Shown here piece by piece: positions 28,658 to 51,701 of a DNA stretch of 64,000 nucleotides. The stretch is from Acidobacteriota bacterium. Its GTDB lineage: Bacteria > Acidobacteriota > Vicinamibacteria > Vicinamibacterales > UBA8438. The stretch's first letter is position 1, and every line of letters starts with the position of its first letter. Under the pieces are notes generated by a model. It did no database searches. It was not told where the DNA came from and saw only the letters and a list, made by a program, of their open reading frames with translations. The translations under genes were made by a program, and so were the position numbers. Where the stretch lies: NCBI GenBank assembly GCA_009838525.1, contig VXRJ01000034.1, positions 62,640 to 126,639 of the forward strand, read 5' to 3'.

Positions 28658-28711
28658 GGACATCTCCCCTGAAGCGTGATTCCGGCTCATGCTACCGCAC
28701 TCCGACGCCGA

Positions 28712-28741
28712 TTGACACGCCTCCGCGCTTCGATTCAGAAT
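28712..28741 (+). promoter_or_regulatory. Candidate sigma-70 promoter of the second DUF1592 cassette
   Basis: TTGACA (28712-28717), an 18-bp spacer and CAGAAT (28736-28741) lie in the 150-bp gap between the divergent cyclase and DUF1592 genes. A transcript starting near 28748 would have a leader of about 60 bases. Confidence 0.4.
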
Positions 28742-28807
28742 GGCGTGTTTTCCATGTGGGACGAAGTTTGTGCGCTGCCGCGCGCGGTCCTCGTCCCGGG
28801 GCCTCAG

Positions 28808-31213
28808 ATGCCGAGAAGCGCGCGACTCGCATTCGCGGCGGTGGCAGGCGGCGTCGCCGTCTTTCTGACGGTGGCCGCGCCGGCTACGTCCGCCCCGCAG
28901 GCCTCCGGTGCGCCCGGCGCCCCGGTCGAGCTCGATCAGCAGGCGCTCCTCGACCGCTACTGCGCCACGTGCCACAACGACCGCCTGGAGACTGGCGGCT
29001 TCTCGCTCGAATCCCTCGACGCGGCGGACGTGGCAGCGCATCCGGAGCAGTGGGAGAAGGTCGTGCGTAAGCTCCGCGCCGGGGCGATGCCGCCCCGTCC
29101 GCGTCCGCGCCCGGACGATGCGACCTACGGCGCCTTCCGCGCCTGGCTTGAGGGCGAACTGGACACGGCGGCAGCCGCCGATCCGAACCCGGGCCGTACC
29201 GAGACGTTCCACCGGCTCAGCCGCACGGAGTACCGCAACGCCATCCGTGACCTGCTCGCGCTCGACGTGAGCGTCGACGAACTGCTGCCGGCGGACGACA
29301 CCAGCTACGGCTTCGACAACATCGCCGGCGTGCTGGGCGTCTCGCCGACGCTGATGGATCGTTACCTCTCCGCAGCGCGCAAGGTCAGCCGCCTCGCCGT
29401 GGCCTCGCCCGTGCCGTCCCCCACCGCCGAGACCTTCCGGATCGCGTCCGATCTGGGGCAGGACGTTCGGATGGAGGGCCTCCCGTTCGGTACGCGGGGC
29501 GGAATTGCGGTCGAGTACAACTTCCCGGAGGACGCCGAGTACGTCATCCAGGTGCTGCCGGACGGTCCGCTGCGGATCGAGCCGCACGATCTGGAGATCA
29601 CCATCGACGGCGAGCGGATCGAGTTGCTCACTGTCGGCAAGGCGCCCGACGAGAACGACCCGCGCGGCCTCTACGTGCCGGAGATCGAAACGCTGGAGGT
29701 GCGGGTCCCGGTCACCGCCGGACCCCATGAAGTCGGCGTGGCGTTCCTCCGCAAGACGTCGGCCGAGCCGGAGGGGATTCGCAAGCTGTACCTCCGGCCG
29801 TTCACCGGCGAAGGCTCCGGCGGTGATTCCCGCTACCAGCCTTATGTGGAGAGCGTGACGATCGCGGGACCTTACGAGTCCAGCGGCGCGCGGCCGGTCG
29901 ACGAGACACCGAGCCGTGAGCGGCTCTTCACGTGCCGGCCGGCGGCGGGAGCGGCCGCTGGCGAGGAGGCCGCCTGTGCGCGGGAGATCCTCTCGACTCT
30001 CGCGCGGCGCGCGTTCCGCCGGCCGGTCGACGGTGAGGACGTGGATCGCCTGTTTGACTTCTACGAACGTGGCCGCGCCGGCGGCAGCTTCGACGCCGGG
30101 ATCGAGATGGCGCTTCGCCGGCTGCTCGTCAGTCCGGAATTCCTCTTCCGCGTCGAGCGGGATCCGGAGGACGCCGGGGCGGCCAGCATCTACCGGGTCG
30201 GCGACCTCGAGCTGGCATCGCGCCTGTCGTTCTTCCTCTGGAGCAGCATCCCGGACGACGAGCTTCTGGAGCTTGCCGAGCAGGACGAGCTGAGCGACCC
30301 TGCCACGTTCGAGGCGCAGGTGGAGCGGATGCTGGCCGATCCGCGCTCAGACGCGCTCACGAGCAATTTCGCCGGGCAGTGGCTGACGCTTCGAAACGCC
30401 GCCGCGGTGCAGCCGGACGAGGATGTCTTTCCAGACTTCGGGGAGGGGCTGCGTCTGGCCTTCCGCCGCGAGACAGAACTGCTCTTCGACAGCGTGCTGC
30501 GCGAGAACCGGAGCGTCCTCGACCTGCTCGCGGCCGACTATACGTTCGTCAACGAGCGGCTTGCCCGCCACTACGGCCTGCCGGGAGTCCGTGGCAGCCA
30601 TTTCCGTCGCGTCACGCTTGACGAGCCGGCTCGCGGCGGCCTGCTGGGTCACGGCAGCATCCTGACCGTTACGTCGTACGCCAACCGCACGTCCCCGGTG
30701 AATCGCGGCAAGTGGGTGCTCGAGAACATTCTCGGAACCCCGCCGCCTCCGCCGCCCCCGAACGTGCCGGAACTGGAGACGGCGGAGGGGGGAGAGGCCC
30801 TTTCGATGCGCGAGGCGATGGCCCAGCATCGCGCCAACCCGGTCTGCGCAAGCTGCCACCGCCTGATGGATCCGGTAGGCCTGTCGCTGGAGAACTTCGA
30901 TGCCGTCGGCCGCTGGCGGGACCGGAGCGAGACGAAGCATGTGATCGATGCCTCCGGGGAGCTGCCCGATGGCTCCACGTTCGATGGGCCCGGCGAGTTG
31001 AAGGCGGCGCTGCTGCGTCACCCCGACCGCTTCGTTACGACCGTTACCGAGAAGCTGCTGACCTACGCCCTGGGGCGTGGGGTGGAGTACTATGACGCCC
31101 CCACGGTGCGGGCGATTGTCCGGGAAGCCGCGGCTGACGACTACCGGCTGTCGACCCTCATCAAGGGGATCGTTCGGAGCGCGCCGTTCCAGATGAGGAG
31201 AACGCCGTCATGA
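28808..31213 (+). CDS. DUF1592-type exported protein with two heme-c motifs, cassette copy 2
   Basis: 801 aa from the ATG at 28808, chosen because it starts a normal signal peptide; ATGs at 28676 and 28754 only add residues before it. Domain order equals copy 1: CATCHNDRL (Cys52-His56), DUF1587 (FHRLSRTEYRNAIRDLLALD), DUF1595, DUF1592 (LASRLSFFLWSSIPDDELL), DUF1588 with CASCHRLMDPVG near residue 680, and DUF1585 (LTYALGRGVEYYD). Length is identical to copy 1, and much of the core is the same residue for residue, while the signal peptide and the middle beta-rich part differ. This indicates a duplication followed by divergence, perhaps for another substrate. It overlaps the DUF1552 gene by ATGA. 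Confidence 0.93.
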   Translation: MPRSARLAFAAVAGGVAVFLTVAAPATSAPQASGAPGAPVELDQQALLDRYCATCHNDRLETGGFSLESLDAADVAAHPEQWEKVVRKLRAGAMPPRPRPRPDDATYGAFRAWLEGELDTAAAADPNPGRTETFHRLSRTEYRNAIRDLLALDVSVDELLPADDTSYGFDNIAGVLGVSPTLMDRYLSAARKVSRLAVASPVPSPTAETFRIASDLGQDVRMEGLPFGTRGGIAVEYNFPEDAEYVIQVLPDGPLRIEPHDLEITIDGERIELLTVGKAPDENDPRGLYVPEIETLEVRVPVTAGPHEVGVAFLRKTSAEPEGIRKLYLRPFTGEGSGGDSRYQPYVESVTIAGPYESSGARPVDETPSRERLFTCRPAAGAAAGEEAACAREILSTLARRAFRRPVDGEDVDRLFDFYERGRAGGSFDAGIEMALRRLLVSPEFLFRVERDPEDAGAASIYRVGDLELASRLSFFLWSSIPDDELLELAEQDELSDPATFEAQVERMLADPRSDALTSNFAGQWLTLRNAAAVQPDEDVFPDFGEGLRLAFRRETELLFDSVLRENRSVLDLLAADYTFVNERLARHYGLPGVRGSHFRRVTLDEPARGGLLGHGSILTVTSYANRTSPVNRGKWVLENILGTPPPPPPPNVPELETAEGGEALSMREAMAQHRANPVCASCHRLMDPVGLSLENFDAVGRWRDRSETKHVIDASGELPDGSTFDGPGELKAALLRHPDRFVTTVTEKLLTYALGRGVEYYDAPTVRAIVREAAADDYRLSTLIKGIVRSAPFQMRRTPS

Positions 31214-32565: not shown

Positions 32566-32584
32566 CATGGCTGCCGGTTGGCGC

Positions 32585-32632
32585 GCCGGCGCCCGCGCCG
32601 GCAACGAGAGGTGCGCCGGCCTCCAGGCCGGC
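32585..32632. repeat. Two tandem palindromic elements (8-bp stem, 2-nt loop)
   Basis: GCCGGCGC-CC-GCGCCGGC (32585-32602) and GCCGGCCT-CC-AGGCCGGC (32615-32632) lie between the DUF1552 stop and the ankyrin start. The two inner stem pairs differ but remain paired. A third copy with inner pairs GT/AC is at 56292-56309. Confidence 0.6.
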
Positions 32633-32641
32633 ATTTCGACA

Positions 32642-34111
32642 ATGCGAGTCACCACCATCGCCGTCGTCGCCCTTGCGCTCGCCTGCACGGCCGGTGTGGC
32701 GGCGCGCGCGGTCGATGCGCCGCTCATCGACGCCGTCAAGGCGGGCGACGCGCAGGCGGTCCGCGCACTGCTGGCCGATGGCGTTGCGGTCGGGACGGCG
32801 GAGGCCGACGGAACGACGGCCCTCCACTGGGCGGCTCATCACGACCGTCTCGACATCGTACAACTGCTGCTGGACGCTGGCGCGGCGGCCGATGCGACCA
32901 CCCGCTACGGGGTCACGCCCCTCGCGCTCGCCTCGCTCAATGGCAGCACGCCGATGATCACGCGCCTGCTCGAGGCGGGGGCCGACCCGAACCGCGCCAA
33001 CCCGGAAGGGGAGACGCCCCTGATGACCGCGGCGCGGACCGGACACGGCGCCGCCATCGACGCGCTGCTCGCGCACGGCGCCGACGTGGATGCGGTGGAG
33101 GAGTGGCGCGGCCAGACCGCGCTCATGTGGGCGGCGGCGCAGAACCAGGTGACATCGGTCGAACGGCTGCTCGCGGCGGGTGCGGATCCGAATGCCCGCT
33201 CCGCGCGAGGCTTCACGCCGGTGCTCTTCGCGGCGCGCGAAGGCAATGTGGAAGTACTGGCGCCACTTGTCCGGTCCGGCGCCGATGTGGACGACGTGCT
33301 GCCCGAACGCGGCATGAGCGGTCTGGTGCTCGCTGTCTACAACGCGCAGTACGACTTCGCCAAGGCGCTGCTCGACGAGGGCGCCGACCCCAACGCGTCC
33401 GGGAACGGCTGGACCGCGCTTCACCAGGTAGTGTGGACTTACCGTCCCAACCTGGGTCGCAATCCGCCCTTCCCGGTGCCGCTGGGCGAGCTGGACGCCT
33501 TCGACATGGTGCGCGAGCTTGCCGCCGCCGGAGCGGATCTGAACTTGCGCCAGACGAAGGAGCCGCGCGACGGCAACCGGAACGTGCTGAACCGGATTGG
33601 TTCGACGGCGTTCCTGCAGGCGGCGAAGGTGGCGGACATCGAGATGATGCAGTTGCTGGTCGATCTGGGCGCCGATCCGTCCATCACGACGGAGGAGGGC
33701 GCCACGCCGCTGATGGCGGCGGCCGGCGTCGGCATTTGGAAGATTGGCGAGAACCCCGGCACCAACGAGGAAGCGCTCGCCGCCGTCGAACTGGCCTGGG
33801 AGCTGGGGAACGACGTGAACGCCGTCGACGTGAACGGCGACACCGCGCTGCATGGCGCAATCCACCGTGGCGCGGACAATATTGTCCGCTTCCTGGTCGA
33901 GAAGGGAGCGAACATCGACGCCGTGAACGAGAACGGTTGGACGGCGCTCTCCGTCGCGCAGGGGGTCTTCTATCCCAACACTTTCAACCGGCATCCGGAG
34001 CTTGTGGACCTACTGCTTGATCTGGGCGCCGATCCGGACGCCGGAACCCGGCGGCCGGAAGATCTTTCGCCGGCGGAACGCCTGGCCCTGGCCGAGGAGC
34101 AGGAGCAGTAG
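32642..34111 (+). CDS. Secreted ankyrin-repeat protein, cassette copy 2
   Basis: 489 aa from the ATG at 32642; the frame is open to 32567 but that part is made of palindromic repeats. A signal peptide (VALALACTAGVAARA) is followed by about ten ankyrin repeats, for example EADGTTALHWAAHH, LLEAGADPNRANPEGETPLMTAAR and VNGDTALHGAIHRGADN. Repeat-by-repeat order and the unusual insert with NRNVLNRIGSTAFLQAAK are shared with copy 1. It is 76 bp after DUF1552 copy 2. The C-terminus is a charged tail (LALAEEQEQ) absent from copy 1. A protein-binding role in the envelope is the best inference. Confidence 0.92.
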   Translation: MRVTTIAVVALALACTAGVAARAVDAPLIDAVKAGDAQAVRALLADGVAVGTAEADGTTALHWAAHHDRLDIVQLLLDAGAAADATTRYGVTPLALASLNGSTPMITRLLEAGADPNRANPEGETPLMTAARTGHGAAIDALLAHGADVDAVEEWRGQTALMWAAAQNQVTSVERLLAAGADPNARSARGFTPVLFAAREGNVEVLAPLVRSGADVDDVLPERGMSGLVLAVYNAQYDFAKALLDEGADPNASGNGWTALHQVVWTYRPNLGRNPPFPVPLGELDAFDMVRELAAAGADLNLRQTKEPRDGNRNVLNRIGSTAFLQAAKVADIEMMQLLVDLGADPSITTEEGATPLMAAAGVGIWKIGENPGTNEEALAAVELAWELGNDVNAVDVNGDTALHGAIHRGADNIVRFLVEKGANIDAVNENGWTALSVAQGVFYPNTFNRHPELVDLLLDLGADPDAGTRRPEDLSPAERLALAEEQEQ

Positions 34112-36557: not shown

Positions 36558-36639
36558 TTCGTCTATTCTGGCGAGGTTGCGCGCACGTATCCCTGTGAGG
36601 ACCATCCCTGGGCGATGGAGCAGGGATGGTGATGGAGCC

Positions 36640-37746
36640 ATGAAGATGACAACTACAGAGAGGCCACGCGATTGGGTTGCTGTCGCTGCGACGGTAGCCA
36701 CGGCGTTCGCGGTTGCGTGCGGCGGTGGCGGCGGGGGCGAGGCCCCGGCCGAGGACGCGGCGGCGATGGACGAAGCGCCCGCGGCGCCTTCGTACATGGT
36801 CTACGTCACCAACGAGTATTCCGGTGACCTGACCGTCATCAACGGCGCGACTAACGAGGCGGTGGAGACCATTCCGCTCGGCAAGCGCCCCCGCGGCATC
36901 AAGGTGTCGCCGGACGCCACGCAACTGTTTGTCGCGCTGAGCGGGTCACCGCCGTCACCGCCCGGCACCGACGAGAGCACGCTCCCGCCCCCGGATCGCT
37001 CCGCCGACGGCATCGGAGTGGTCGACCTGGCCGCCGGTGAAGTGGTCAACATGGTCCGCGCCGGCACCGACCCGGAGCAGATGGCGGTGAGCAATGACGG
37101 CACGCGGCTCTACGTCGCGAACGAGGACGCCGGGATAGCGAGCGTCGTCGACATCGCGACCGGCGAGATCCTGGCCGAGCTCCCCGTCGGCGGCGAACCC
37201 GAGGGGGTGCGCATCAGCCCCGACGGCCGCGTCGTCTACGTCACCTCGGAGGAGGACAATCGGGTGACCGCCATCGACACCGCGACCAACGAAGCGATCG
37301 CGCAGTTCGAGGTAGGCGCCCGCCCGCGGGCCAGCGCGTTCTCGCCGGACAGCAACCGGGCCTACGTAACCGCCGAGAACAGCGGCACCGTCCATGTCGT
37401 GGACACGTCGACGCACGAGGTGCTGCACACCATCGACCTTTCCGATCTGGGTGATCTGGTCCGTCCCATGGGCGTCGTCGTATCCCCCGACGGCACCCGC
37501 GTCTACGTCACCACCGGCCGCGGGCGCACCGTCGTTGTCATCGACGCCGCCACCTGGGAGCCGCTGTCAACCATCGAAGTGGGCGAGCGTCCCTGGGGGA
37601 TCGGAATCACGCCCGATGGCCGCTATCTCTACACCGCCAACGGTCCGTCCAACGACGTCAGCGTCGTCGACACGGAAACCAACCAGGTCGTCGGGACCAT
37701 TCCGGCGGGCGAGCGCCCCTGGGGCATCGCTATCATCGGCGAGTGA
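36640..37746 (+). CDS. YVTN-repeat beta-propeller lipoprotein
   Basis: 368 aa from the ATG at 36640. The lipobox FAVAC puts the lipidated Cys at residue 27, followed by a poly-Gly and Ala/Glu-rich tether. The rest is a seven-bladed propeller with repeats such as MVYVTNEYSGDLTVINGATNEAV, RLYVANEDAGIASVVDIATGE and YLYTANGPSNDVSVVDTETNQ. These surface-layer/YncE-like propellers bind protein or cofactor partners and some accompany PQQ dehydrogenases. It overlaps the VOC lipoprotein region, so both belong to one transcript. No catalytic residues are evident. Confidence 0.9.
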   Translation: MKMTTTERPRDWVAVAATVATAFAVACGGGGGGEAPAEDAAAMDEAPAAPSYMVYVTNEYSGDLTVINGATNEAVETIPLGKRPRGIKVSPDATQLFVALSGSPPSPPGTDESTLPPPDRSADGIGVVDLAAGEVVNMVRAGTDPEQMAVSNDGTRLYVANEDAGIASVVDIATGEILAELPVGGEPEGVRISPDGRVVYVTSEEDNRVTAIDTATNEAIAQFEVGARPRASAFSPDSNRAYVTAENSGTVHVVDTSTHEVLHTIDLSDLGDLVRPMGVVVSPDGTRVYVTTGRGRTVVVIDAATWEPLSTIEVGERPWGIGITPDGRYLYTANGPSNDVSVVDTETNQVVGTIPAGERPWGIAIIGE

Positions 37747-37775
37747 GCCGTCAGACGGAGCAGCTGCCCGGACAC

Positions 37776-38918
37776 ATGACTTCTCTGCGGGTGCTTGCCG
37801 CCGCCTGCGCCCTCGCCACTGCGATGGCATGTTCCGGCGCGCCCGGTACGACCGGCGACGAGGTCGAACCGGCTGAAGCGGCCGCCGCCGATCCAGCACC
37901 GGCACTGCCACGTCCGGCCTTTCACCACATCCACATCAACTCCGTCGATCCGGAGCGCGCCCTCGACTGGTGGTCGACGTTCTGGCCGGCGGGTGAGCGG
38001 ACGACCTTCGCGGGGATGCCGGCGTTCGCGGCGGACGGGATCTACTTGCTGTATACGCAGGTGGACGAACCGGCGCCGGGCGCCTTCGATCCGGAACGGC
38101 GGCAGTCGATTCCGCAGAGCCCGTTCTGGACGACCGGACCGAGCACGGACGGGCTGGCGCTGTACGAGCGGCTGACGGCACTCGATCCGGACGGGGAACG
38201 GTTCGCCTTCCTGCCCGTGTTTACGGGGCCGGACGACACGGTCGGCGTGCCGCACTCGGGGCTGGCGCCGTTCGGCGATCAACTGCTCACGGTCGCCGAG
38301 ATGGAGGAGCGGCGGGCGCGCGAAGGCCCGAACCCGACGCGCGACCGGGGGAGCGGGCAGGACTTCGGCTATCTCGTCGATCCCGACGGGATACTCGTAG
38401 AGTTCAACGGGAACGCTGAGACCGACGATCTCTTCTACGGCCACACGCACTTCTGGCACGAGCAGCCACTCTGCGCCGCCAACTGGTACGTCGAAACGCT
38501 TGGCGTGACCCTGCCGCCCCAGCGCAACCCGGACACCGGTGAGTTGGAGCCACGCCCGCTCTACGACCCGTGCGACGTCCCGATCGGCGACGTCAGCTAT
38601 GCGTCGTTCCTGCCGATGGGGCAGCTCCGGCGTCCGATTGCGAGCGTCCGCCTCGAGAACGCGGGATGGGCCTGGTATACGCGCCAGTGCCGCGACGGCC
38701 GCTGCGGCCCGGAGCTGGACGTGCCTTTGTCACCGTCCCGCGGCCAAGTCGTCGATCGTGTCGGGATCGCGTATCCCGATCTTGATCCCGTGCTCGCCCA
38801 TCTGGAGTCGCGCGGCGTTCCAATCATCGAGGGGCCCTACCCGTTCGGCGAGACGCGCGCGGTCCTGATCGAAGACCTCGACGGCCTGGCGCTGGAGCTG
38901 ATCGAAGCGGCGCCCTGA
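37776..38918 (+). CDS. Exported VOC (glyoxalase/dioxygenase-fold) lipoprotein
   Basis: 380 aa from the ATG at 37776, which begins a lipoprotein signal with lipobox TAMAC (Cys19); a GTG at 37743 overlapping the previous stop is the alternative start. Two VOC-type modules can be seen: the first begins with FHHIHINSVDPERALDWWSTFW and ends at DFGYLVDPDGILVEFNG; the second begins YGHTHFWHEQPLCAANWYVETLG and ends AVLIEDLDGLALELIE. His and Glu at these strand positions are the usual metal ligands. VOC enzymes (glyoxalase I, extradiol dioxygenase, fosfomycin-resistance proteins) are normally cytosolic, so membrane anchoring outside the cytoplasm is unusual. Substrate unknown. Confidence 0.82.
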   Translation: MTSLRVLAAACALATAMACSGAPGTTGDEVEPAEAAAADPAPALPRPAFHHIHINSVDPERALDWWSTFWPAGERTTFAGMPAFAADGIYLLYTQVDEPAPGAFDPERRQSIPQSPFWTTGPSTDGLALYERLTALDPDGERFAFLPVFTGPDDTVGVPHSGLAPFGDQLLTVAEMEERRAREGPNPTRDRGSGQDFGYLVDPDGILVEFNGNAETDDLFYGHTHFWHEQPLCAANWYVETLGVTLPPQRNPDTGELEPRPLYDPCDVPIGDVSYASFLPMGQLRRPIASVRLENAGWAWYTRQCRDGRCGPELDVPLSPSRGQVVDRVGIAYPDLDPVLAHLESRGVPIIEGPYPFGETRAVLIEDLDGLALELIEAAP

Positions 38919-38984
38919 GCGATATACTCGCGGATCGGTCCGTCTCCGGACCGGTCGTTCTCGTCGGCGCCAAGGGGTGATCCG

Positions 38985-41900
38985 TTGGGTCGAGCTTCGC
39001 GCTTCGTCGTCGCGTCGGCCATCGCCGGGGTGGCAATCGTCGCCACCGGTCGGAATACCACCACCGAACCGCAGTCAGGCGTCGTGCACGTGTCGGTAGG
39101 CCATGCCTCCACCGTGGAAGAACTTCGGCACTGGGAGGCGGTGGTCGAGCGCATGACGCGCACCGGAGAACTGCGCGTTGCATCCCGCCGCCCGGACCCC
39201 GTGCTGAACGGCCGCACGCACGAGTACCTCGCCCAATATGTCGGCGGCGTGCCCGTGCATGGCGGCGGCCTCGTGCGGCAGCTCGATCGCGGCGTGACGG
39301 TCTCGATGCTCGGCTCGATTCATCGGGGGATCGATGTGGAGCCGGGATCGCTTCTGTCCGACGTCGAGGTCACGGCGAGCATCCAGCACGCCACCGGCGC
39401 GAGGCCGGCGCCGGACGACCCGGTTCGGCTATTCATCCTGGCATTCCCGAATGGCGCCTACCGACTGGCCTACCGGATGTTGTCCATCGACGAGCGCGCC
39501 TTCTTCGGCGACGCGATGGACGGCCGTGTCGCGCACGTGGAGGAGGCCATCGGTGCCGCCGAGCGCGACGGCGGTGTGCCGGAGGGCGCCGGGATCGCCA
39601 CCGCGATCCCGGACTTCGCGGCCGCCGCGCGGCTCGGGCCGCGGCAGTTCACCGACGAATACGGGCACATCCAAACCTGCGATAGCGCGATGTTCCCGGT
39701 TCAGGCGGAGGGCGTCTGGCAATCGATGCCCGCCTGGTGCGAGGACGGCCGGTTCGTGCTCGCGTCGTCCCAGGGAGGTGCCGTGGGCCAGGCCTACGCG
39801 GATATCTTCTCGACCGCGGCCGACGGGAAGGGGCCCGGTGCCCGCGTGCTCCAGGTGGATCAGCGTGCCGGAGGAAGTCCGGTCGCCTATTCCTCACGCC
39901 TGGAGTTTGCGCTCGTTGCCGATGGAGGGCGCTGGCGCTACTCGGGCGTCGCTTTCACCGACGGACAGTTCGCTGGCGCTACCGGGGATTGCTGCGACGG
40001 GGCGGAGCGGTGGAACGCGACGATCCTGAGCCGGGCGTTTCATCTTGCCGTCGAGGGTGGAACGAACGGGGCGACGGGGCTGACCGTAGACGGCGCGGGC
40101 CTCGCGAATCGCGACCGGATCGAAGCGATCTTCCTCCGCGCGCGGCATGTGCTGATGCCGCCGGTGCTGTCGTTTCCGCTCGCGGCGGAGGCCATCCGCC
40201 AGTCCGCGCACGATCTGGAGGCCGGTTCGGTCGTTCAGCAGGCGGTCGAGCAGTCGTTGCGGGCCGTCGGCCTGCCGCCGTTGCGGGAACAGGAGGACGT
40301 TCGGGAGGGCGAGCGCCGCGCCGCCGGCGCCCGCAACGATGTCGCCGCTGCTGCCGCTACTACTGACGCCGGCCGAAACGACGCTGGCGGGGCGGCGACC
40401 AATGAGCAGGTGGCCATCGGCGCCTTGGGGGCCACGACGGACGTTGCCGGGCCCCAGGCGGACGGATTCGACGTGGAAGCGTCGGGCGTTGGCTACATGA
40501 GCTACGAGAGCCCCTACTCGAACCCGATCGCCCTGCTGCCGGACTCGTCCCTGCTCTACACCGTCAACACCCCGTCCGACACCGTCGACGTTATCGACCC
40601 GGCCACGCGGGCCATCGTTGCGCGCATCCCGGTCGGAATCGACCCGGTCGGCATAGCGGTGCGTCCGGACGGCCGGGAAGTCTGGGTGTCCAACCACATT
40701 TCCGATTCCGTCAGCGTCATCGACTCCGACCCGGCCAGCCCCACGCGGCACCAGGTACTGGCCACCATCCAGCGCTACGACAACACGGGCCGGACGCGCT
40801 TCGACGAGCCGGTCGGAATCGCTTTTGCAAACAACGAAAAGGCCTACGTCGCCCTGTCGTCGTCCAACCGGGTCGCGGTTGTCGACGTGGCGGCGCGCAG
40901 CCTGACGTACATGCTCGAGTTGAGCGCGCAGGATCCGCGCGCCCTGACCGTGAGCGGCGACCGGCTCTACGTCGTGCCGTTCGAATCGAACAACCAGACG
41001 CAGCTCTCGGGCTGCTGGCCGCGCTACATCGACGGCGATCTCTGCACCTTCGACGCCCGCAAGCACGTGACCGAGGCGGAACCGGGCAACGCGCCGACGC
41101 TGTCGTTGAACTACGTCGCGGATGTGGTTCGGCATCCTCGAATCCCGGATCGGGACCTGTTCGTCTACGACACGGCGACGGACGCTCTGGTCGAGGTGGT
41201 GGACACGCTGGGAACCCTGCTCTATGGGATCACCGCCGATTCGCAGGGCCGCATCTTCATTTCGCAGACCGAAGCCCGCAACGACAAGAACGGCAAGGCG
41301 GGTACCGCGAACCATGGCCTCGCGGAGCTGGAGAACCGCCCCTACCTCAACCGGATCACCCGCCTGCCCTGCGACGGCGGGTGCGGTGAGCCGACGTTGT
41401 TTGAACTGGAGCCCGTGCCTCCTGCCCACCCCGCTCCCGGCACGGCTCTGGCGACGCCCTTCGCCATCGCGGTCAGCGATGACGACGCGACGCTGGTGGT
41501 CACGGCGTCGGCATCCAGCCGCGTTTTCACGGTGGATGCCGGATCCGGCGCGGTGCTCGGCCGGGTTGAAGTCGGTTCAGGCCCGCGAGGCGTCGCCCTG
41601 GAGACGACGGCGGCCGGAGCGCCCGCGCGGGCGTGGGTCCTCAACGCGCTGGAGAACAGCGTGTCGCTGGTCGATCTGCGAAATCGCGCGGCGCCACGGG
41701 TGGTGACCACGATTGCCCTGCACGACCCGACGGATCCCGAGCTGAAGCAGGGCCGTATCGCGTTCAACAATGCGGAGGGATCCAGCACGGAGACGTTCGC
41801 CTGCGCCAGTTGCCATCCGGACGGGCACACCGATCAGTTGATCTGGGTGCTGGATACCCCGTTGTGCGATGTGGGTTGCGACCAGATTCAGCCGCGCCTG

Positions 41901-43616
41901 GTGCAGGACGTTCGCGGGTTGCGCGGCAGCGCGCCGTATCACTGGGACGGCACGCTCGGCGATCCGTTCGGCGGCATCAACACCCCCAACATCACCAGCC
42001 TGGTCGAGCCGAACTGCGATCCGGAGGTTCCGGAGAGCTGCACGCTCCATGTCATGGAAACCGCCTTGCGCACCACCATGTGCGACCAGACCGACTGCGA
42101 GACCAACGAAGAAGGCAAACCGGGTCGGCTCTCCGGGGCGGAGCGGGCCGCCATGGCGAAGTACCTGCTAAGCGTTCCCTATCCGCCATCGCCGGAGCGG
42201 CCGTACACCAACGCCATGTCCGCGACGGCGATGGAGGGTGTGCGCCTGTTCCACTTCAGCCGGCAGTGCGCCAACTGCCACCGCCTGCCGTTCTGGACCA
42301 TGACCAACATGGGCGGCAGCGGCATGGACGTGCCGTCGTGGCGGGGCGCCAACGACCGCTGGAAGACGTCCCCCCAGAATCGCTTCTTCTTCGCCGACCT
42401 CGTGGGTGGCGACACGCGGGGTTTTCCGGAGCGCAACACTTTCGTCAACGACAACAACCTGTTCCAGATGATTGTGGAGGGAAGCGTCGGCTTCTCCGGC
42501 GCGCTCGGGCGGCAGGTGACCCTGAATCAGGAGACGGCGGGCGCCGACGCAACCCGGGATCTGCTGGATGCGCTGGAGCAGGCGGCCGCCGAGGGCGGAG
42601 TCGTTCTGCAGGCGGAAGGCCTGCGACTCCACGCAACCGGGGCGGGCGCGCCCCTGGCGCTGCAGTTCAGCGGCGGCGTCTACCGCAGCCGGCTTGGCGA
42701 CGGCGCCTCGCACACGCGCAGCGAGTTGACGACTTCAGCCGCGGCGGGCGAAGTGCTGCTGACCATTACCGCGCGTCTCGGCTACCTCGCGGACTACGAT
42801 CATCCGCAGCCGACGCTGTATCCGCACGAACTTCCCGTATTGCCGAGGTTCCCCGGAGGGCGTCCTGCGGAGTTTCCCGAATTGCATGCCGCCGGGCCAA
42901 TGCGGCTGCGGGGCGAGCACATACAGCTCGGCGCCTACGTGTTGGTCAACGGACGCCGCGTGGCGGGCTCTGTCGTCTGCGAGGCGGGCGTCCTGCCGGA
43001 CTGCGAGGGCGATACCGTGGTCGTCCAGCTCGCCCGGTTGCCGGCGGAGACGGGGCTCCACATGCTGCAGGTGCAGAATCCCGAGGGCCTGTTCAGCAAC
43101 GACCTGCCGTTCCACGTGATCGAGGCGGCGCCGCGGGCCGAGTCCGGGAATCTCATCACGAGCGGCGGCAGGTTCGACGTGCAGGGTTCCTGGCGGGTGA
43201 ACCTGACGAACGCGTCCGTCACCTGGAACGGAGAGGCGGATTTCACTATCGACGCACCCGCGGTCCAGCCGTGGCGCGTGCAGCTCTCTCACAATGTGGT
43301 GATAGAGGAGGGGGCGGAGTATACGCTCTGCTACTCTGCCCGAGCCGACGACTTTCGCTACATCCAGGTCAACGTGGACACCGGTGCGACGGAGTACCGT
43401 AGCGTGATGGGCACTGGCATCAGTCCGGATGTCGGTGGGGCGGTCCGGGGCTCGGGGGCGAGTCTGACGCGCGACTTCCACCAGTTCCGGCACCGGTTCG
43501 TCAGCCCGGAAGCGGACTACAACGCGAGAATCGCCTTCACGCTGGCGCAGAGCGACGTGGACGTGCAGATAGACAACGTCGGGCTCTACAAAGGCAGGGG
43601 ATGCGGCGCCCCATGA
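38985..43616 (+). CDS. Giant exported mosaic: FTP propeptide, inactive M4 peptidase, YVTN propeller, cytochrome c, carbohydrate-binding domain
   Basis: 1543 aa from a TTG with AAGGGG seven bases upstream. Residues about 35-140 match the FTP propeptide of thermolysin-type proteases. Residues about 255-430 match the C-terminal half of an M4 peptidase (GQAYADIFS, FHLAVEGGTNGATGLTVDGAG, QQAVEQSLRAVGL), but the HExxH helix is absent and the third zinc ligand position is Gln, so it cannot be a protease. An Ala/Asp-rich linker leads to a YVTN propeller (about 500-900), then two CxxCH heme motifs (Cys940-His944 and Cys1095-His1099) in a cytochrome-peroxidase-like arrangement, an IPT-like section, and a C-terminal CBM4/9-like module (about 1390-1543) ending VQIDNVGLYKG. 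The role may be redox at a polymer surface; that is inference. Confidence 0.85.
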   Translation: MGRASRFVVASAIAGVAIVATGRNTTTEPQSGVVHVSVGHASTVEELRHWEAVVERMTRTGELRVASRRPDPVLNGRTHEYLAQYVGGVPVHGGGLVRQLDRGVTVSMLGSIHRGIDVEPGSLLSDVEVTASIQHATGARPAPDDPVRLFILAFPNGAYRLAYRMLSIDERAFFGDAMDGRVAHVEEAIGAAERDGGVPEGAGIATAIPDFAAAARLGPRQFTDEYGHIQTCDSAMFPVQAEGVWQSMPAWCEDGRFVLASSQGGAVGQAYADIFSTAADGKGPGARVLQVDQRAGGSPVAYSSRLEFALVADGGRWRYSGVAFTDGQFAGATGDCCDGAERWNATILSRAFHLAVEGGTNGATGLTVDGAGLANRDRIEAIFLRARHVLMPPVLSFPLAAEAIRQSAHDLEAGSVVQQAVEQSLRAVGLPPLREQEDVREGERRAAGARNDVAAAAATTDAGRNDAGGAATNEQVAIGALGATTDVAGPQADGFDVEASGVGYMSYESPYSNPIALLPDSSLLYTVNTPSDTVDVIDPATRAIVARIPVGIDPVGIAVRPDGREVWVSNHISDSVSVIDSDPASPTRHQVLATIQRYDNTGRTRFDEPVGIAFANNEKAYVALSSSNRVAVVDVAARSLTYMLELSAQDPRALTVSGDRLYVVPFESNNQTQLSGCWPRYIDGDLCTFDARKHVTEAEPGNAPTLSLNYVADVVRHPRIPDRDLFVYDTATDALVEVVDTLGTLLYGITADSQGRIFISQTEARNDKNGKAGTANHGLAELENRPYLNRITRLPCDGGCGEPTLFELEPVPPAHPAPGTALATPFAIAVSDDDATLVVTASASSRVFTVDAGSGAVLGRVEVGSGPRGVALETTAAGAPARAWVLNALENSVSLVDLRNRAAPRVVTTIALHDPTDPELKQGRIAFNNAEGSSTETFACASCHPDGHTDQLIWVLDTPLCDVGCDQIQPRLVQDVRGLRGSAPYHWDGTLGDPFGGINTPNITSLVEPNCDPEVPESCTLHVMETALRTTMCDQTDCETNEEGKPGRLSGAERAAMAKYLLSVPYPPSPERPYTNAMSATAMEGVRLFHFSRQCANCHRLPFWTMTNMGGSGMDVPSWRGANDRWKTSPQNRFFFADLVGGDTRGFPERNTFVNDNNLFQMIVEGSVGFSGALGRQVTLNQETAGADATRDLLDALEQAAAEGGVVLQAEGLRLHATGAGAPLALQFSGGVYRSRLGDGASHTRSELTTSAAAGEVLLTITARLGYLADYDHPQPTLYPHELPVLPRFPGGRPAEFPELHAAGPMRLRGEHIQLGAYVLVNGRRVAGSVVCEAGVLPDCEGDTVVVQLARLPAETGLHMLQVQNPEGLFSNDLPFHVIEAAPRAESGNLITSGGRFDVQGSWRVNLTNASVTWNGEADFTIDAPAVQPWRVQLSHNVVIEEGAEYTLCYSARADDFRYIQVNVDTGATEYRSVMGTGISPDVGGAVRGSGASLTRDFHQFRHRFVSPEADYNARIAFTLAQSDVDVQIDNVGLYKGRGCGAP

Positions 43617-43642
43617 CGGTGGCGGACGGGGGGAGGAGATCA

Positions 43643-44662
43643 ATGCGGGTACGAACAACGCAATCGCGGTTCCGGATGGGGTTCCTGACCGTGCTGGCGA
43701 TACTGCTGATGCCGGCGGCCGCCGCCGCGCAATCGTCCGAAGCCCCGCGCACGCCGTGGGGCGATCCCGATCTCGGTGGCGTGTGGGACTACTGGACGTT
43801 CACGCCCCTCGAACGTCCGGAAGCGCTCGCCGACCGGGCGACGCTGACCGAGGAAGAGGCGGCGGCGGTGGCGCAGGAGGCCAACGAGGCCGCGCTGGCG
43901 CGTGACCTGGCCGCTCCGCCCGGGGATCCCGGCGCCTACAGCCAGGCGGTCTGGACGGATCGCGCCCGGGCGACGGCGCTGACCCAGACGGCGCTCATCG
44001 TTGATCCGCCCGACGGCCGGGTCCCGCCCCTGACGCCCGAGGCCGAGGCGCGCGAGGAGACGAGGCTGGCCGGCGACGGACTGCCGGTGCGGATTCGCGT
44101 CGGCGGTTTTGGCGCAGCGGGACCCGAAGAGCGTGGACTGGCCGAGCGCTGCCTGCTCGGATTCAGCACTGGACCGCCCCTGCTGCCCGGCGGCTACAAC
44201 AACAACGTGCAGGTGTTCCAGACGCCTGACGCGGTCGTGCTGCTGATTGAAATGAACCACGATGTGAGAGTGGTGCCGCTCGACGGCCGCGCCGCGATAG
44301 CCGACGGAATCCGGCAGTGGATGGGCAGCTCGCGCGGCCGTTGGGAAGGTGACACGCTGGTCATCGACACCCGCAACTTCACCGGCCGGACGGCCAGCTT
44401 CGCACTGACCGGCAGTGCGTGGGGCTCGGCGGAAGGGCTGCATCTGGAGGAGCGGTTCACCCGGGTGGACGGCGACACGCTCCTCTACGAGTTCACCGTA
44501 AACGATCCGGCCAGCTTCACTCGTCCCTTCAGCGGGCGGCTTCCGATGAACCGGAGCGACCTGCCGCTCTACGAGTACGCCTGCCACGAGGGCAACTACG
44601 GGATGGAGAACCTCCTGCGCGGCGCCCGGGCCGAGGAGCGGGAAGCGGCCGAGCAGCAGTAG
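43643..44662 (+). CDS. Secreted protein of an unnamed 'TPWGDPDL/YACHEGN' family, member 1
   Basis: 339 aa from the ATG at 43643 after GGGAGGAG; earlier in-frame ATGs at 43601 and 43613 overlap or crowd the previous gene. A signal peptide ends near AAAAQ. The mature protein starts with RTPWGDPDLGGVWDY and keeps the family marks LIVDPPDGRVPPLTPEA, YNNNVQVFQTPDAVVLLIEMNHDVRVVPLDGR, SRGRWEGDTLVIDT, ERFTRVDGDTLLYEFTV and YEYACHEGNYGMENLL. I do not recognise a characterised relative. Conserved His, Asp and Cys residues in the late segment may be functional. Members 2 (44953) and 3 (63284) are in this window. A small membrane-protein gene on the other strand follows. Confidence 0.85.
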   Translation: MRVRTTQSRFRMGFLTVLAILLMPAAAAAQSSEAPRTPWGDPDLGGVWDYWTFTPLERPEALADRATLTEEEAAAVAQEANEAALARDLAAPPGDPGAYSQAVWTDRARATALTQTALIVDPPDGRVPPLTPEAEAREETRLAGDGLPVRIRVGGFGAAGPEERGLAERCLLGFSTGPPLLPGGYNNNVQVFQTPDAVVLLIEMNHDVRVVPLDGRAAIADGIRQWMGSSRGRWEGDTLVIDTRNFTGRTASFALTGSAWGSAEGLHLEERFTRVDGDTLLYEFTVNDPASFTRPFSGRLPMNRSDLPLYEYACHEGNYGMENLLRGARAEEREAAEQQ

Positions 44663-44677: not shown

Positions 44678-44878
44678 CTAGGCGAACCGAGGGCCGCCGA
44701 GCACGCGAGCGGGCAGCATGATGACCGCCGCGATGAAGCTCAGCGCGCCGCCGACCGCGATCCCGATTAGCCGGAACGGCAGCAAGACGAGCCAGACGAT
44801 CGGGTAGACGAAGAGTGCCAGCAGGGCAAGCGGCCAGCACAGCACGAACAGGATGCACCAGAGGAGGAACTTGGTCAT
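44678..44878 (-). CDS. Small two- or three-helix membrane protein
   Basis: 66 aa, hydrophobic almost end to end: MTKFLLWCILFVLCWPLALLA, a Pro-containing turn, then LLPFRLIGIAVGGALSFIAAVIM, and a basic tail LPARVLGGPRF. An AGGAT site precedes the ATG at a normal distance. It lies alone on the minus strand between two paralogous secreted-protein genes and converges on the first. Coding is supported by composition, ribosome site and lack of an overlapping gene. Function unknown. Confidence 0.7.
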   Translation of the reverse strand: MTKFLLWCILFVLCWPLALLALFVYPIVWLVLLPFRLIGIAVGGALSFIAAVIMLPARVLGGPRFA

Positions 44879-44952
44879 TGTCTATCCTTAGAATACGAAG
44901 GAGACGCCAACCGGTTCCCCGGGAGATTGGCAACGCGCACGCAGGAGGTCAG

Positions 44953-45987
44953 ATGCCGAGATCAGCAGTTCGCAGGATGAGCAGGGTGGGAGCGGTGTGT
45001 GCGGCCGCATTGCTGGCTGCGGCTCCGGTGGCGGCCCAGAACGGCGATGAAGCGCTCCCACGAACACCGTGGGGCGATCCCGATCTGCAGGGGATCTGGA
45101 ACAACTCGACGACGACGCGCCTCGAACAGTTGACCGAGGCGGAGGTGCAGCGAGACCGCGACGCACGGGCTCCGGTCATCGAGGCGACGCGGGGGACCGG
45201 GGCGGCGTGGCCGGAGACGGGGGGAAACCTCGAGCAGCCGTCGCTGATCATCGATCCGCCGGACGGGCGGATCACGATGACGCCGGAAGCGATCGCCCGT
45301 CTCGTGGCGCGCGAGAAGGCTCGGGAAGGCCGGGGCGAGGGGGATTCCTGGCTCGACCGGAACAGTTGGGAGCGCTGCATCTCGCGGACGATGCCGGTCC
45401 AGATGATCCCCAACCTCTACAACAACAACTACCAGATCTTCCAGACGCCCACCCACGTCGTCATTCAGATCGAGATGATTCACGAAACCCGGATCATCCC
45501 GATAGACGGCCGGCCGCATTCGTCGGACGGGATTCGCCAGTGGCTAGGAGACTCGCGCGGCCGCTGGGAAGGCGACACCCTCGTCGTCGAGACCATCCAC
45601 TTCCACGACCGGATGGACGGCGGCGACTATCAGCCATCGCACATTCTGCAGACGGGTCATCGCGGCCCCGGCGACACCCTGCGCATCGTGGAGCGCTTCA
45701 CGCGTGTCGACGCCGAGACGATCGACTACCGGTTCACGGTGGAGGACCCGTTCACCTACACCCGCCCGTATACCGTGGCGATTCCCTTTCGATGGCGGGA
45801 GAATCAGGAGCCCATCTACGAATACGCCTGTCACGAGGGCAACTACGGTATGGTGAACCTGCTCAGCGGCGCCCGCGCCAATGAGCCGCTGGCGATCAGG
45901 GCTTCGACGCTGGTCTCGCGGCAGCGGACGGAGGCGGGGCATCCCGGCGTTCGGGAGCCGGCGGTGCCGTTCGTGACGGACCCGTAG
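44953..45987 (+). CDS. Secreted protein of the 'TPWGDPDL/YACHEGN' family, member 2
   Basis: 344 aa from the ATG at 44953, four bases after GGAGG. Signal peptide to about residue 28 (APVAAQ). Family marks: RTPWGDPDLQGIWNNSTTT, LIIDPPDGRITMTPEA, YNNNYQIFQTPTHVVIQIEMIHETRIIPIDG, SRGRWEGDTLVVET, ERFTRVDAETIDYRFTV and YEYACHEGNYGMVNLL. Compared with member 1 the middle holds a WERCISR segment, where member 1 has ERCLLG, so a Cys after Glu-Arg is conserved. Alternating polar/aromatic strands suggest an all-beta fold. Role unknown; likely periplasmic. Confidence 0.87.
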   Translation: MPRSAVRRMSRVGAVCAAALLAAAPVAAQNGDEALPRTPWGDPDLQGIWNNSTTTRLEQLTEAEVQRDRDARAPVIEATRGTGAAWPETGGNLEQPSLIIDPPDGRITMTPEAIARLVAREKAREGRGEGDSWLDRNSWERCISRTMPVQMIPNLYNNNYQIFQTPTHVVIQIEMIHETRIIPIDGRPHSSDGIRQWLGDSRGRWEGDTLVVETIHFHDRMDGGDYQPSHILQTGHRGPGDTLRIVERFTRVDAETIDYRFTVEDPFTYTRPYTVAIPFRWRENQEPIYEYACHEGNYGMVNLLSGARANEPLAIRASTLVSRQRTEAGHPGVREPAVPFVTDP

Positions 45988-47689: not shown

Positions 47690-48970
47690 ATGAACCGCAC
47701 GTGCTACACGGTCGGCGTCATCCTGGCGCTATTCTTCGTTGCCGCCGCGACCGCCGAGGGGGCTCAGGCGCCGGCCGAGACCACCTTCACCAAGGACGTG
47801 CTGCCGATCCTGCAGCGCGCCTGCCAGCAGTGCCATCGGCCCGGATCCGTCGCGCCGATGTCGCTCCTCACCTACGAAGACGTTCGGCCTTGGGCGCGCG
47901 CCATCCGCGACAAGACGGCGCAGCGCGAGATGCCGCCGTGGTTCATAGAACGGAACGTCGGCGTTCGCGCCTTCAAGGAAGATCCGTCGCTGTCGGACGA
48001 GGAGATCGCCACCATCGATCGCTGGGTGGAGGCCGGCGCGCCGCGGGGCAACCCGGCCGACGCGCCGCCGCCGGTTGAACTGGCGGACCTTGACGAGTGG
48101 CGCATCGGCACCCCCGAGTGGATTGTCGAGTTGCCGGAGGAAGTTGTCGTCGGCGCGGTAGATGCCGACCGCTGGCTCGACATCTGGGCCGACTCGCGGC
48201 TCACGGAGGACCGCTACATCAAGGCGGTCGAGACCAAGCCATCGCCCGGCGCCTACCCGGTGGTCCATCACGTCGCCACGTCCATGACGTGGGAAGAGGA
48301 GGACGGCGAAGAAGGGGGCGGCTTTCTCAACGAGTACGCGATGGGGAAGAACGGCGACATCTTTCCCAACGGAACCGGCCGCCTGATCAAGGCGGGCACG
48401 CAGATCCGCTTCAACATGCACTACAGCTCGGTGGGCGAGGAGATTCGCGACCGGACCCGCGTCGGCTTCCAGTTCTACCCGCCGGGGTACGTGCCTGACC
48501 AGGTCCTGATCTCGCGCCACGTGGGCGACAGCTTCGATACGCTCGACATCCGCGCCGGCGAGAGAGACGCGCGGAGTGACGGCTACTACGTCCTGCCCGA
48601 GCCTACGCAGGTGACCGGCTTCCAGCCGCACATGCACATCCGCGGCGACCGGATGTGCGTCGAGGCGATCTACCCGGACGGCAGGATCGACACCCTGAGC
48701 TGCACGAAGCACAACTTCGGCTGGCACATCGTCTACAACTACGCTGACCACGAGGCGCCGTTGCTGCCGGCCGGGACGATCCTTCACGTCATCGGCTGGC
48801 ACAACAATACGGCGACCAACCGCTACAACCCCGACCCGAAGAACTGGGTCGGCTTCGGCAACCGTTCCATCGACGACATGAGCTTCGCCTGGATGAGCTT
48901 CTTCCACATGTCGGACGACGAGTACGAGCGGCGGATCGAGGAGCGGGCGCGCCAGACGAACAACAACTGA
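47690..48970 (+). CDS. Exported heme-c/copper type II monooxygenase-like protein (PHM/DBM fold)
   Basis: 426 aa with a signal peptide. The first domain has one heme-c motif, CQQCH (Cys45-His49), in a planctomycete-type cytochrome. The rest fits the ascorbate-dependent type II copper monooxygenase fold of peptidylglycine alpha-hydroxylating monooxygenase and dopamine beta-monooxygenase. Candidate ligands are all in order: His193-His194 and His244 for one copper, and His314, His316 and Met397 for the other. Fused heme could supply electrons in place of ascorbate; this is inference. It overlaps the next gene by one base (TGATG). An NHL protein resembling the amidating lyase partner is 2.7 kb away. 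Confidence 0.85.
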   Translation: MNRTCYTVGVILALFFVAAATAEGAQAPAETTFTKDVLPILQRACQQCHRPGSVAPMSLLTYEDVRPWARAIRDKTAQREMPPWFIERNVGVRAFKEDPSLSDEEIATIDRWVEAGAPRGNPADAPPPVELADLDEWRIGTPEWIVELPEEVVVGAVDADRWLDIWADSRLTEDRYIKAVETKPSPGAYPVVHHVATSMTWEEEDGEEGGGFLNEYAMGKNGDIFPNGTGRLIKAGTQIRFNMHYSSVGEEIRDRTRVGFQFYPPGYVPDQVLISRHVGDSFDTLDIRAGERDARSDGYYVLPEPTQVTGFQPHMHIRGDRMCVEAIYPDGRIDTLSCTKHNFGWHIVYNYADHEAPLLPAGTILHVIGWHNNTATNRYNPDPKNWVGFGNRSIDDMSFAWMSFFHMSDDEYERRIEERARQTNNN

Positions 48971-49818: not shown

Positions 49819-49886
49819 GACCGGCAGTGGAACCGCACGCTCCTCGGTGTTGGCGTTCGCGGCCAGCCGGGAGCAAGGAGCAAGAG

Positions 49887-51701
49887 ATGATTTCATCCAA
49901 CTGGGCGGCAACCCGACGACTCCTCGTAGCCATGACCGCGGTTGCCATGGTCACTGGCACATCGACGGCGGCTGGGCAGCAGGGACGGACCACCCGGCAG
50001 GGAGCGCCGCCGAACATCACGGCGGGCGGCCAGACCAACTGGACGAGCCACAACCTCGACCTCGACAACAGCCGCTACTCGGAACTCGACCAGATAAACG
50101 CGGGAACGGCTGGCCGATTGTCCGAGCAGTGGTCCTACGAGGTCGCGGCGGGGATCGATGTCGCCCAGGTGACGCCGCTCGTGGTCGACGGCCTCATGTA
50201 CCTGCATGCGGGCCCCAGAGTGATTGCCATCAATGCCGTCACCGGGGAGGAGGTCTGGAACCTCGAGCTGAACGAGGCGCGGACCAACCGCGTGCGGGGG
50301 CCGACCTACGCGGAGGGGAAGATCTACTCCTACAACGGCCCCAACCTCGTCGCGGCCGACGCGAAGACCGGCGAACTCGTGGAATCGTACGGCGACGGCG
50401 GCGTTCTGCCGGTCGTCGGATTGGCGCTGCAGGCCAAGTATCCGGACGTTTATCCGCCGACCCTGGATCCGCACGAGCTGGGCTATCGGATCACGGCCGC
50501 GCCCGCGTACCACGACGGCACGCTTTACGTCGGCGCGGCGCTTTCGGAGGGGCACATCCCGGGTGGCCTGGTGATTGCCACCGATGCCGCCACCGGGGCC
50601 ATCAAGTGGGTCTTCAACACGATCCCGCAGCGGCCGCAGGACGACGGGTGGGAGATCGCGCGCGACACGTGGGGCGACGGCCAGCGTGCCGGCGGCGGGG
50701 TCTGGACGCAGCCCGCCATCGACCTCGACTTGGGGCTCATCTACTTCAACACCGGCAACCCATCGCCCGACTACGACGGATCGGCGCGACCCGGCGCGAA
50801 CCTGTTCACCAACGCCACCGTCGCTCTCGACCTGGAAACCGGCGCGCTCCGCTGGTACTACCAGGCCATCCATCACGACCTGTGGGACTGGGACCACGTC
50901 ACCGGACCGGTGCTTTTCGATGTGACACGCAACGGCGAGACGATCCGGGGCGTCGGTTCGGCCGGCAAGAACTGCCTGCTCTACCTGTGGCACCGCGAGA
51001 CCGGCGAGCCGATCAACCCGATGGTGGAGACGCTGGTGCCGACCGAGACGAACGTGCCCGGCGAAGTGGTCTATCCGACCCAGCCCATCCCGCATAACGC
51101 GCGCGGCGTGCCGATGATGCCGTTCTGCGCCACGTACGTGCACCTGGACGATCCGGAGATGCAGTCGAGGTCGCGACAGATGTACACGCCGTACTCCATC
51201 GAGGAGCACCTGATCGTCGCTCATGGCGGATCAAGCTTCGGCTCGCCCGCATTCAGCCCGCGCACGGGGCTGCTCTACGTCACCGGCAAGAACGCGGCGG
51301 TCTCGATGATCGTCCGGCCGGTCGGCGACAGCCTGGAGCCGGGGCCGCACGGCGACGGCCACAGCGCGAACTTCGAGGAGATCAGCCGCATTCCCGAATT
51401 CACGCCGACCACGACCCTTACTGCCTACGAGCCGGCAAGCGGGGAAGAGGTGTGGCAACAGGTGTTTCCGGCCCTCACCACCATCGGGGCGAGCGGCAAC
51501 CTTGCTACGGCGGGCGATCTGGTTTTCCAGGGCGCGGACGACGGCGCCTTCTATGCGTTCCACGCGGAGACCGGCGAGTTGCTGTTCGAACACCGGGCGC
51601 CGCGTCCCGTTCGGTCGAGTCCGATGACCTACCAGGTCAACGGAAAGCAGTACGTCACGGTGATCGCGACCAACACCGTGTTGACGTTCACGCTCCCGTA
51701 A
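49887..51701 (+). CDS. Exported PQQ-dependent dehydrogenase-type eight-bladed propeller
   Basis: 604 aa from the ATG at 49887 after AAGGAG; upstream in-frame ATG at 49827 has no site. After the signal peptide the protein has repeated propeller blades, including NWTSHNLDLDNSRYSELDQIN, LMYLHAGPRVIAINAVTGEEVW and LVIATDAATGAIKWVF. It also has the quinoprotein-type DLWDWDHVTGPVLFDV segment, typical of glucose and alcohol quinoproteins. Electron transfer would pass from substrate to PQQ and then to a cytochrome. No PQQ synthesis genes are in the window. A separate heme-c domain is lacking, so a partner cytochrome is needed, perhaps the neighbour at 47690. Confidence 0.88.
   Translation: MISSNWAATRRLLVAMTAVAMVTGTSTAAGQQGRTTRQGAPPNITAGGQTNWTSHNLDLDNSRYSELDQINAGTAGRLSEQWSYEVAAGIDVAQVTPLVVDGLMYLHAGPRVIAINAVTGEEVWNLELNEARTNRVRGPTYAEGKIYSYNGPNLVAADAKTGELVESYGDGGVLPVVGLALQAKYPDVYPPTLDPHELGYRITAAPAYHDGTLYVGAALSEGHIPGGLVIATDAATGAIKWVFNTIPQRPQDDGWEIARDTWGDGQRAGGGVWTQPAIDLDLGLIYFNTGNPSPDYDGSARPGANLFTNATVALDLETGALRWYYQAIHHDLWDWDHVTGPVLFDVTRNGETIRGVGSAGKNCLLYLWHRETGEPINPMVETLVPTETNVPGEVVYPTQPIPHNARGVPMMPFCATYVHLDDPEMQSRSRQMYTPYSIEEHLIVAHGGSSFGSPAFSPRTGLLYVTGKNAAVSMIVRPVGDSLEPGPHGDGHSANFEEISRIPEFTPTTTLTAYEPASGEEVWQQVFPALTTIGASGNLATAGDLVFQGADDGAFYAFHAETGELLFEHRAPRPVRSSPMTYQVNGKQYVTVIATNTVLTFTLP

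Follow-up and report, generated by a model that had tools for sequence, protein, structure and literature searches.

The window, the whole 64,000-nucleotide stretch analysed here, contains a long run of exported redox-type genes between positions 28676 and 53679. The run includes a cytochrome-like protein with a CxxCH motif (28676-31213), a YVTN protein (36577-37746), a glyoxalase-fold protein (37743-38918), another cytochrome-like protein (47690-48970), and a PQQ-dehydrogenase-like protein (49827-51701); the cytochrome-like and PQQ-dehydrogenase-like proteins were named by eye from the sequence. Within this run, a plus-strand open reading frame of 1543 codons occupies 38985-43616 and is intact throughout. 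Its TTG start codon aligns with the ATG starts of related M4 (thermolysin-type) peptidases, and a GGGG Shine-Dalgarno-like run lies ∼7 nt upstream of the TTG (38972-38987, AAGGGGTGATCCGTTG). GC content by codon position follows the pattern of the neighbouring genes along the whole frame, M4 part included. Two related genes come after it (43601-44662 and 44815-45987), the first of which has no Pfam match.

The initial annotation had described the product as a mosaic built on a dead thermolysin-like domain, and its coordinates and parts were right. All features lie on the plus strand. Residues 1-30 (38985-39074) form a signal peptide without a lipobox, which aligns with the signal peptides of the M4 relatives and is modelled as a helix at residues 6-19. 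An M4 propeptide, FTP then PepSY-like, spans residues 31-190 (39075-39554); Pfam FTP (PF07504) matches residues 62-111 (E 4e-6, 26.9 bits against a cut-off of 21), in agreement with the FTP propeptide named earlier. A tblastn gap and the alignment mark a deletion scar at residues 197-209 (39573-39611). Residues 210-432 (39612-40280) are a remnant of the M4 helical lobe, with 41–51% identity to the M4 peptidases of the host family. An Ala/Asp-rich linker without a lipobox (residues 433-494, 40281-40466) leads to a seven-bladed YVTN propeller (residues ∼502-915, 40488-41729) and then to a diheme region resembling CCP and hydrazine synthase (HZS) gamma (residues ∼916-1240, 41730-42704). The two heme c motifs that had been noted are indeed there, CASCH at residue 940 (41802-41816) and CANCH at residue 1095 (42267-42281), both of the CxxCH type. 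The C-terminal domain, residues 1386-1543 (43140-43613), is CBM4/9-like and was seen otherwise only in gammaproteobacterial relatives.

The propeller identification is solid: Pfam gives YVTN-type propeller matches, and the best PDB match is HZS beta (5c2v_B, Z 38.5). The first heme region is nearest to HZS gamma (5c2v_C profile, E 6.6e-5), and Pfam CCP_MauG was found in 13 of the 21 aligned members of the C-half family; in the AlphaFold model the diheme region falls partly under pLDDT 50. As its YVTN propeller precedes a CCP-like region with two CxxCH motifs, the protein belongs to the broad group of fused HZS beta-gamma homologues. We rejected an assignment to HZS beta itself (75 bits against an NCBIfam equivalog cut-off of 560) and to HZS beta-gamma itself (51 bits against 1250). 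No match to HZS alpha (PF18582) was found at E≤1 in this genome, which is 97% complete. The carbohydrate-binding module (CBM) proposed initially is supported at the family level only, the window copy itself having no Pfam match: Pfam CBM_4_9 matches four of eight family members (best E 1.3e-4), and the profile of the region matches the CBM of laminarinase 16A (1gui, E 9e-6).

Over their whole length, CBM included, residues 495-1543 are 57–70% identical to stand-alone gammaproteobacterial relatives, while relatives without a CBM occur in Verrucomicrobiota and Planctomycetota. Among the complete stand-alone relatives, most have a leader of the signal or lipoprotein type a short way ahead of the point where homology to the window copy begins. 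The window copy keeps 291 of 307 conserved positions of this half, plus both hemes.

Residues 1-483 were searched against 162 genomes of the order, 84 of which had matches. The best relatives were complete peptidases from the same family, with 45–50% identity to both retained blocks. Pfam M4_C at residues 343-429 (E 1e-3, 19.1 bits) stays under its cut-off of 24.4, yet the M4 assignment is secure because of the identity to full M4 peptidases and the fold match described below. The relatives have ∼170 extra residues between query residues ∼197 and 209, which make up the N-terminal lobe and HExxH helix. HExxH was kept in all ∼40 M4 relatives scanned from the same order and was absent only from this reading frame, where, as the initial annotation had it, the motif occurs nowhere. 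The annotation also called a Gln at the third zinc ligand, and the alignments confirm it: the GAxNEAxSD motif reads GAVGQAYAD here, placing Gln269 (39789-39791) at the position of thermolysin Glu166. A further loss, absent from that annotation, is the catalytic His. GAERWNATILSRAF stands where the relatives have GGxHWNSTILSHAF, and alignment to thermolysin itself pairs Arg342 (40008-40010) with His231. The loop bearing the RSLxxP motif, which we take to be the thermolysin Arg203 region, is also deleted, and the alignment to relatives shows several indels within the lobe. We had considered Tyr287 as a catalytic site and dropped it, since thermolysin Tyr157 precedes Glu166. HExxH, the Glu zinc ligand, and the catalytic His231 of an active M4 peptidase are thus all missing. 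The Glu-to-Gln and His-to-Arg changes fall outside the deletion; several independent catalytic requirements are therefore gone, beyond those removed in one deletion.

The rest of the M4 half is better kept. Of the deeply conserved sites, invariant in the sister M4 peptidases, the propeptide retains 18 of 19 and the lobe 19 of 22. The two catalytic residues that fall within the retained M4 part have both been replaced (Fisher p 0.03 against the kept conserved sites, a test that counts these two catalytic sites only). The AlphaFold model has a mean pLDDT of 80, and residues 31-188 and 210-466 are mostly above 85. The propeptide exceeds 90 over most of its length and matches YpeB, YpmB, and M4 propeptides. 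Structure prediction, the check suggested with the initial annotation, identified the lobe as the helical C-terminal lobe of M4 peptidases: it overlays thermolysin 150-316 with Z ∼18 and an rmsd of 2.1–2.4 Å over 146 residues. Intact M4 relatives were present in the alignment used for AlphaFold and may have imposed the fold. Solved structures of the thermolysin fragment 255-316 exist (1trl); a literature search on the folding of thermolysin fragments found no useful paper.

These data fit a retained non-catalytic M4 domain under relaxed constraint. We also considered whether the M4 part has been decaying as a passenger since the fusion: only the signal peptide would matter, and the frame would stay open because the cytochrome lies downstream. 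Indeed, the end branch of the M4 half (0.94) is the longest in the M4 tree (0.11–0.41 for the nearest sisters), and such fast evolution is also expected if the half is merely decaying. The indels in the lobe and the occurrence of the fusion in one genome only point the same way, and with the cytochrome half downstream, stop codons in the M4 half would be selected against regardless. Against decay, the conserved core sites are largely kept while about half of the variable sites of the M4 half have changed, the GC content by codon position matches that of the neighbours, and the predicted fold is confident. A very recent fusion could also leave a kept core, a coding signal, and a fold. On balance, we regard decay as unlikely, though a reading of some weight.

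Phylogenetic trees placed the two halves apart. The M4 half groups with M4 peptidases native to the host family. The C half falls among Gammaproteobacteria, with SH-aLRT values of 97–98 for a group of five and 99–100 for a wider group, and a tree rebuilt without two very long rows gave the same placement. A constrained tree holding the C half with the host family's copies was rejected (p-AU 3e-44). The host family has its own YVTN-diheme version, found in eight family genomes including this one, where the copy lies on contig C32. That version has 54–63% identity to the window copy across the shared core and, where it was read through, a different C-terminal tail; Pfam glucose/sorbosone dehydrogenase was found in five aligned members. 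The C half of the window gene is thus intact and of foreign origin.

The native-type copy in this genome (L065, C32:143833-146466) shares the YVTN-diheme core at 56–59% identity. It differs from the window protein in having its own leader and, in place of the CBM, a C-terminally fused glucose/sorbosone dehydrogenase-like propeller. It adjoins an ankyrin gene that is 43% identical to window 32567-34111. The sole other M4 in the genome, on contig C18, belongs to a different subgroup, so the window gene is probably the genome's only descendant of its own M4 subgroup. Homologues of the genes at 43601-44662 and 44815-45987 lie near this intact C18 M4 (L077:11722-13819), on the opposite strand; the co-occurrence may be chance, since the family seems to be multi-copy. 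Host-family genomes (L073, L074, L079) have tandem M4 pairs, with two complete FTP-M4 genes adjoining.

We looked for the fusion elsewhere. None of the other genomes tested, 162 of the order and 396 of the phylum, gave a junction-spanning match; none of 22 GTDB loci matched the M4 half, the GTDB scan giving relatives of the C half only. A family-wide architecture was accordingly rejected. Gene order around the fusion gene showed no conservation with the gammaproteobacterial or the M4 relatives, and the literature searched contained no case of an M4 pseudopeptidase fused to a redox protein. The suggestion that a dead M4 fold had been reused in a redox protein stands insofar as a dead fold, its conserved non-catalytic residues retained, lies N-terminal to a two-heme protein. 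It does not extend to wider reuse, or to a general architecture, with one fusion in one genome and a foreign redox half. The gene is best read as a chimera confined to a single lineage, which carries a dead thermolysin-type domain and is made of known parts.

The initial annotation held that orthologues with a complete M4 domain would imply a local deletion or an assembly error. Such relatives exist for the N-terminal half (∼40 of ∼40 complete), but an assembly error does not seem to follow. Were the gene an artefact of assembly or binning, an M4 gene would have been wrongly linked to an unrelated cytochrome gene and the deletion would be false. The assembly is a draft of 38 contigs, the halves differ in phylogenetic origin, and the fusion is known from one sequence, as such a misjoin would have it. 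However, the junction is in frame with the coding signal intact on either side, the Glu-to-Gln and His-to-Arg substitutions are not part of the deletion, and the missing M4 lobe is not found elsewhere in the assembly, all of which makes a local error unlikely. The C half is, moreover, GC-rich, and its codon-position pattern is that of host genes. We therefore hold an artefact to be very improbable.

With the architecture, the loss of the determinants of catalysis, the mixed ancestry, and the retained conserved core established, we think it fairly probable that a resident M4 peptidase was fused in frame to an acquired YVTN-diheme-CBM protein and that the pseudopeptidase stays as a non-catalytic N-terminal domain. 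The resident gene would have been joined to a horizontally acquired one, and either the fusion or the M4 inactivation could have come first. The leader that the acquired protein once had, lipoprotein or secretory, would have been lost. Heme attachment to CxxCH requires export, and the linker offers the C half neither a leader nor a plausible internal start followed by one; export would thus now depend on the M4 signal peptide. Without its N-terminal lobe and HExxH helix, and with the Glu166 ligand and His231 replaced, the M4 moiety would bind no catalytic zinc, and with catalysis lost the propeptide could not be self-cleaved. Propeptide and half-lobe would then stay on the propeller-diheme protein as its N-terminal domain. 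The diheme protein may do peroxidase-like or electron-transfer chemistry, and the C-terminal domain may bind a surface glycan. We infer that the protein is synthesised, folds, and is exported as a single chain, in which the dead domain may serve for folding or tethering and be more than baggage. That the thermolysin-type propeptide and half-lobe are in stable non-catalytic use (chaperone, tether, or binding) on an exported HZS-beta-gamma-like diheme protein is a possibility we put forward tentatively. Finally, that the dead M4 is a decoy or regulator, binding substrates, propeptide, or M4 inhibitors and bringing them to the heme protein or the cell surface, would suit the retained propeptide and helical lobe and the protein-protein interactions through which pseudopeptidases of other metallopeptidase families work (PMC11266112), but the deletion has removed half of the substrate cleft and the genome has just one other M4; we give this reading hardly any credence.

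The fusion protein combines traits of several known systems. It shares signal peptide, propeptide, helical lobe fold, and domain order with FTP-PepSY M4 peptidases of the thermolysin/vibriolysin type, and departs from them by the deletion of the N-lobe with HExxH, the two substitutions, and the C-terminal fusion. YpeB/YpmB and other PepSY proteins likewise have an M4-type propeptide fold without an active peptidase (5boi, Z 10.8) but have no helical M4 lobe and no heme protein. The gammaproteobacterial YVTN-diheme-CBM proteins (L032-L040) cover all of residues 495-1543 at up to 70% identity and share the domain order and both hemes; unlike the window protein, they have their own signal or lipoprotein leader and no M4 part. 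Fused HZS beta-gamma homologues are widespread in environmental bacteria, and some have extra N-terminal cytochrome domains (cytochrome c554), as a 2025 study reported (PMC12758564). They share with the window protein a propeller nearest HZS beta followed by a CCP-like diheme region nearest HZS gamma; here, however, scores are far under the NCBIfam cut-offs and the add-on is a dead protease, a new type of N-terminal addition for these widespread relatives.

The main interest of the gene lies in the demonstrably different origins of its halves and in a dead half that keeps its core, a tangible example of an M4 pseudopeptidase. Should the dead domain be functional, gene fusion would have converted a protease into a structural or export module, and a horizontally acquired cytochrome would have gained its export leader from a resident gene; if the M4 domain is only baggage, the gene is a one-genome curiosity. 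Another long frame occurs among the C-half relatives: on two Akkermansiaceae contigs (L046 and L047, 7671-12866), a YVTN-diheme protein lies within a 1732-aa open frame, which is possibly the one of 21 aligned relatives with a Pfam Sulfatase match.
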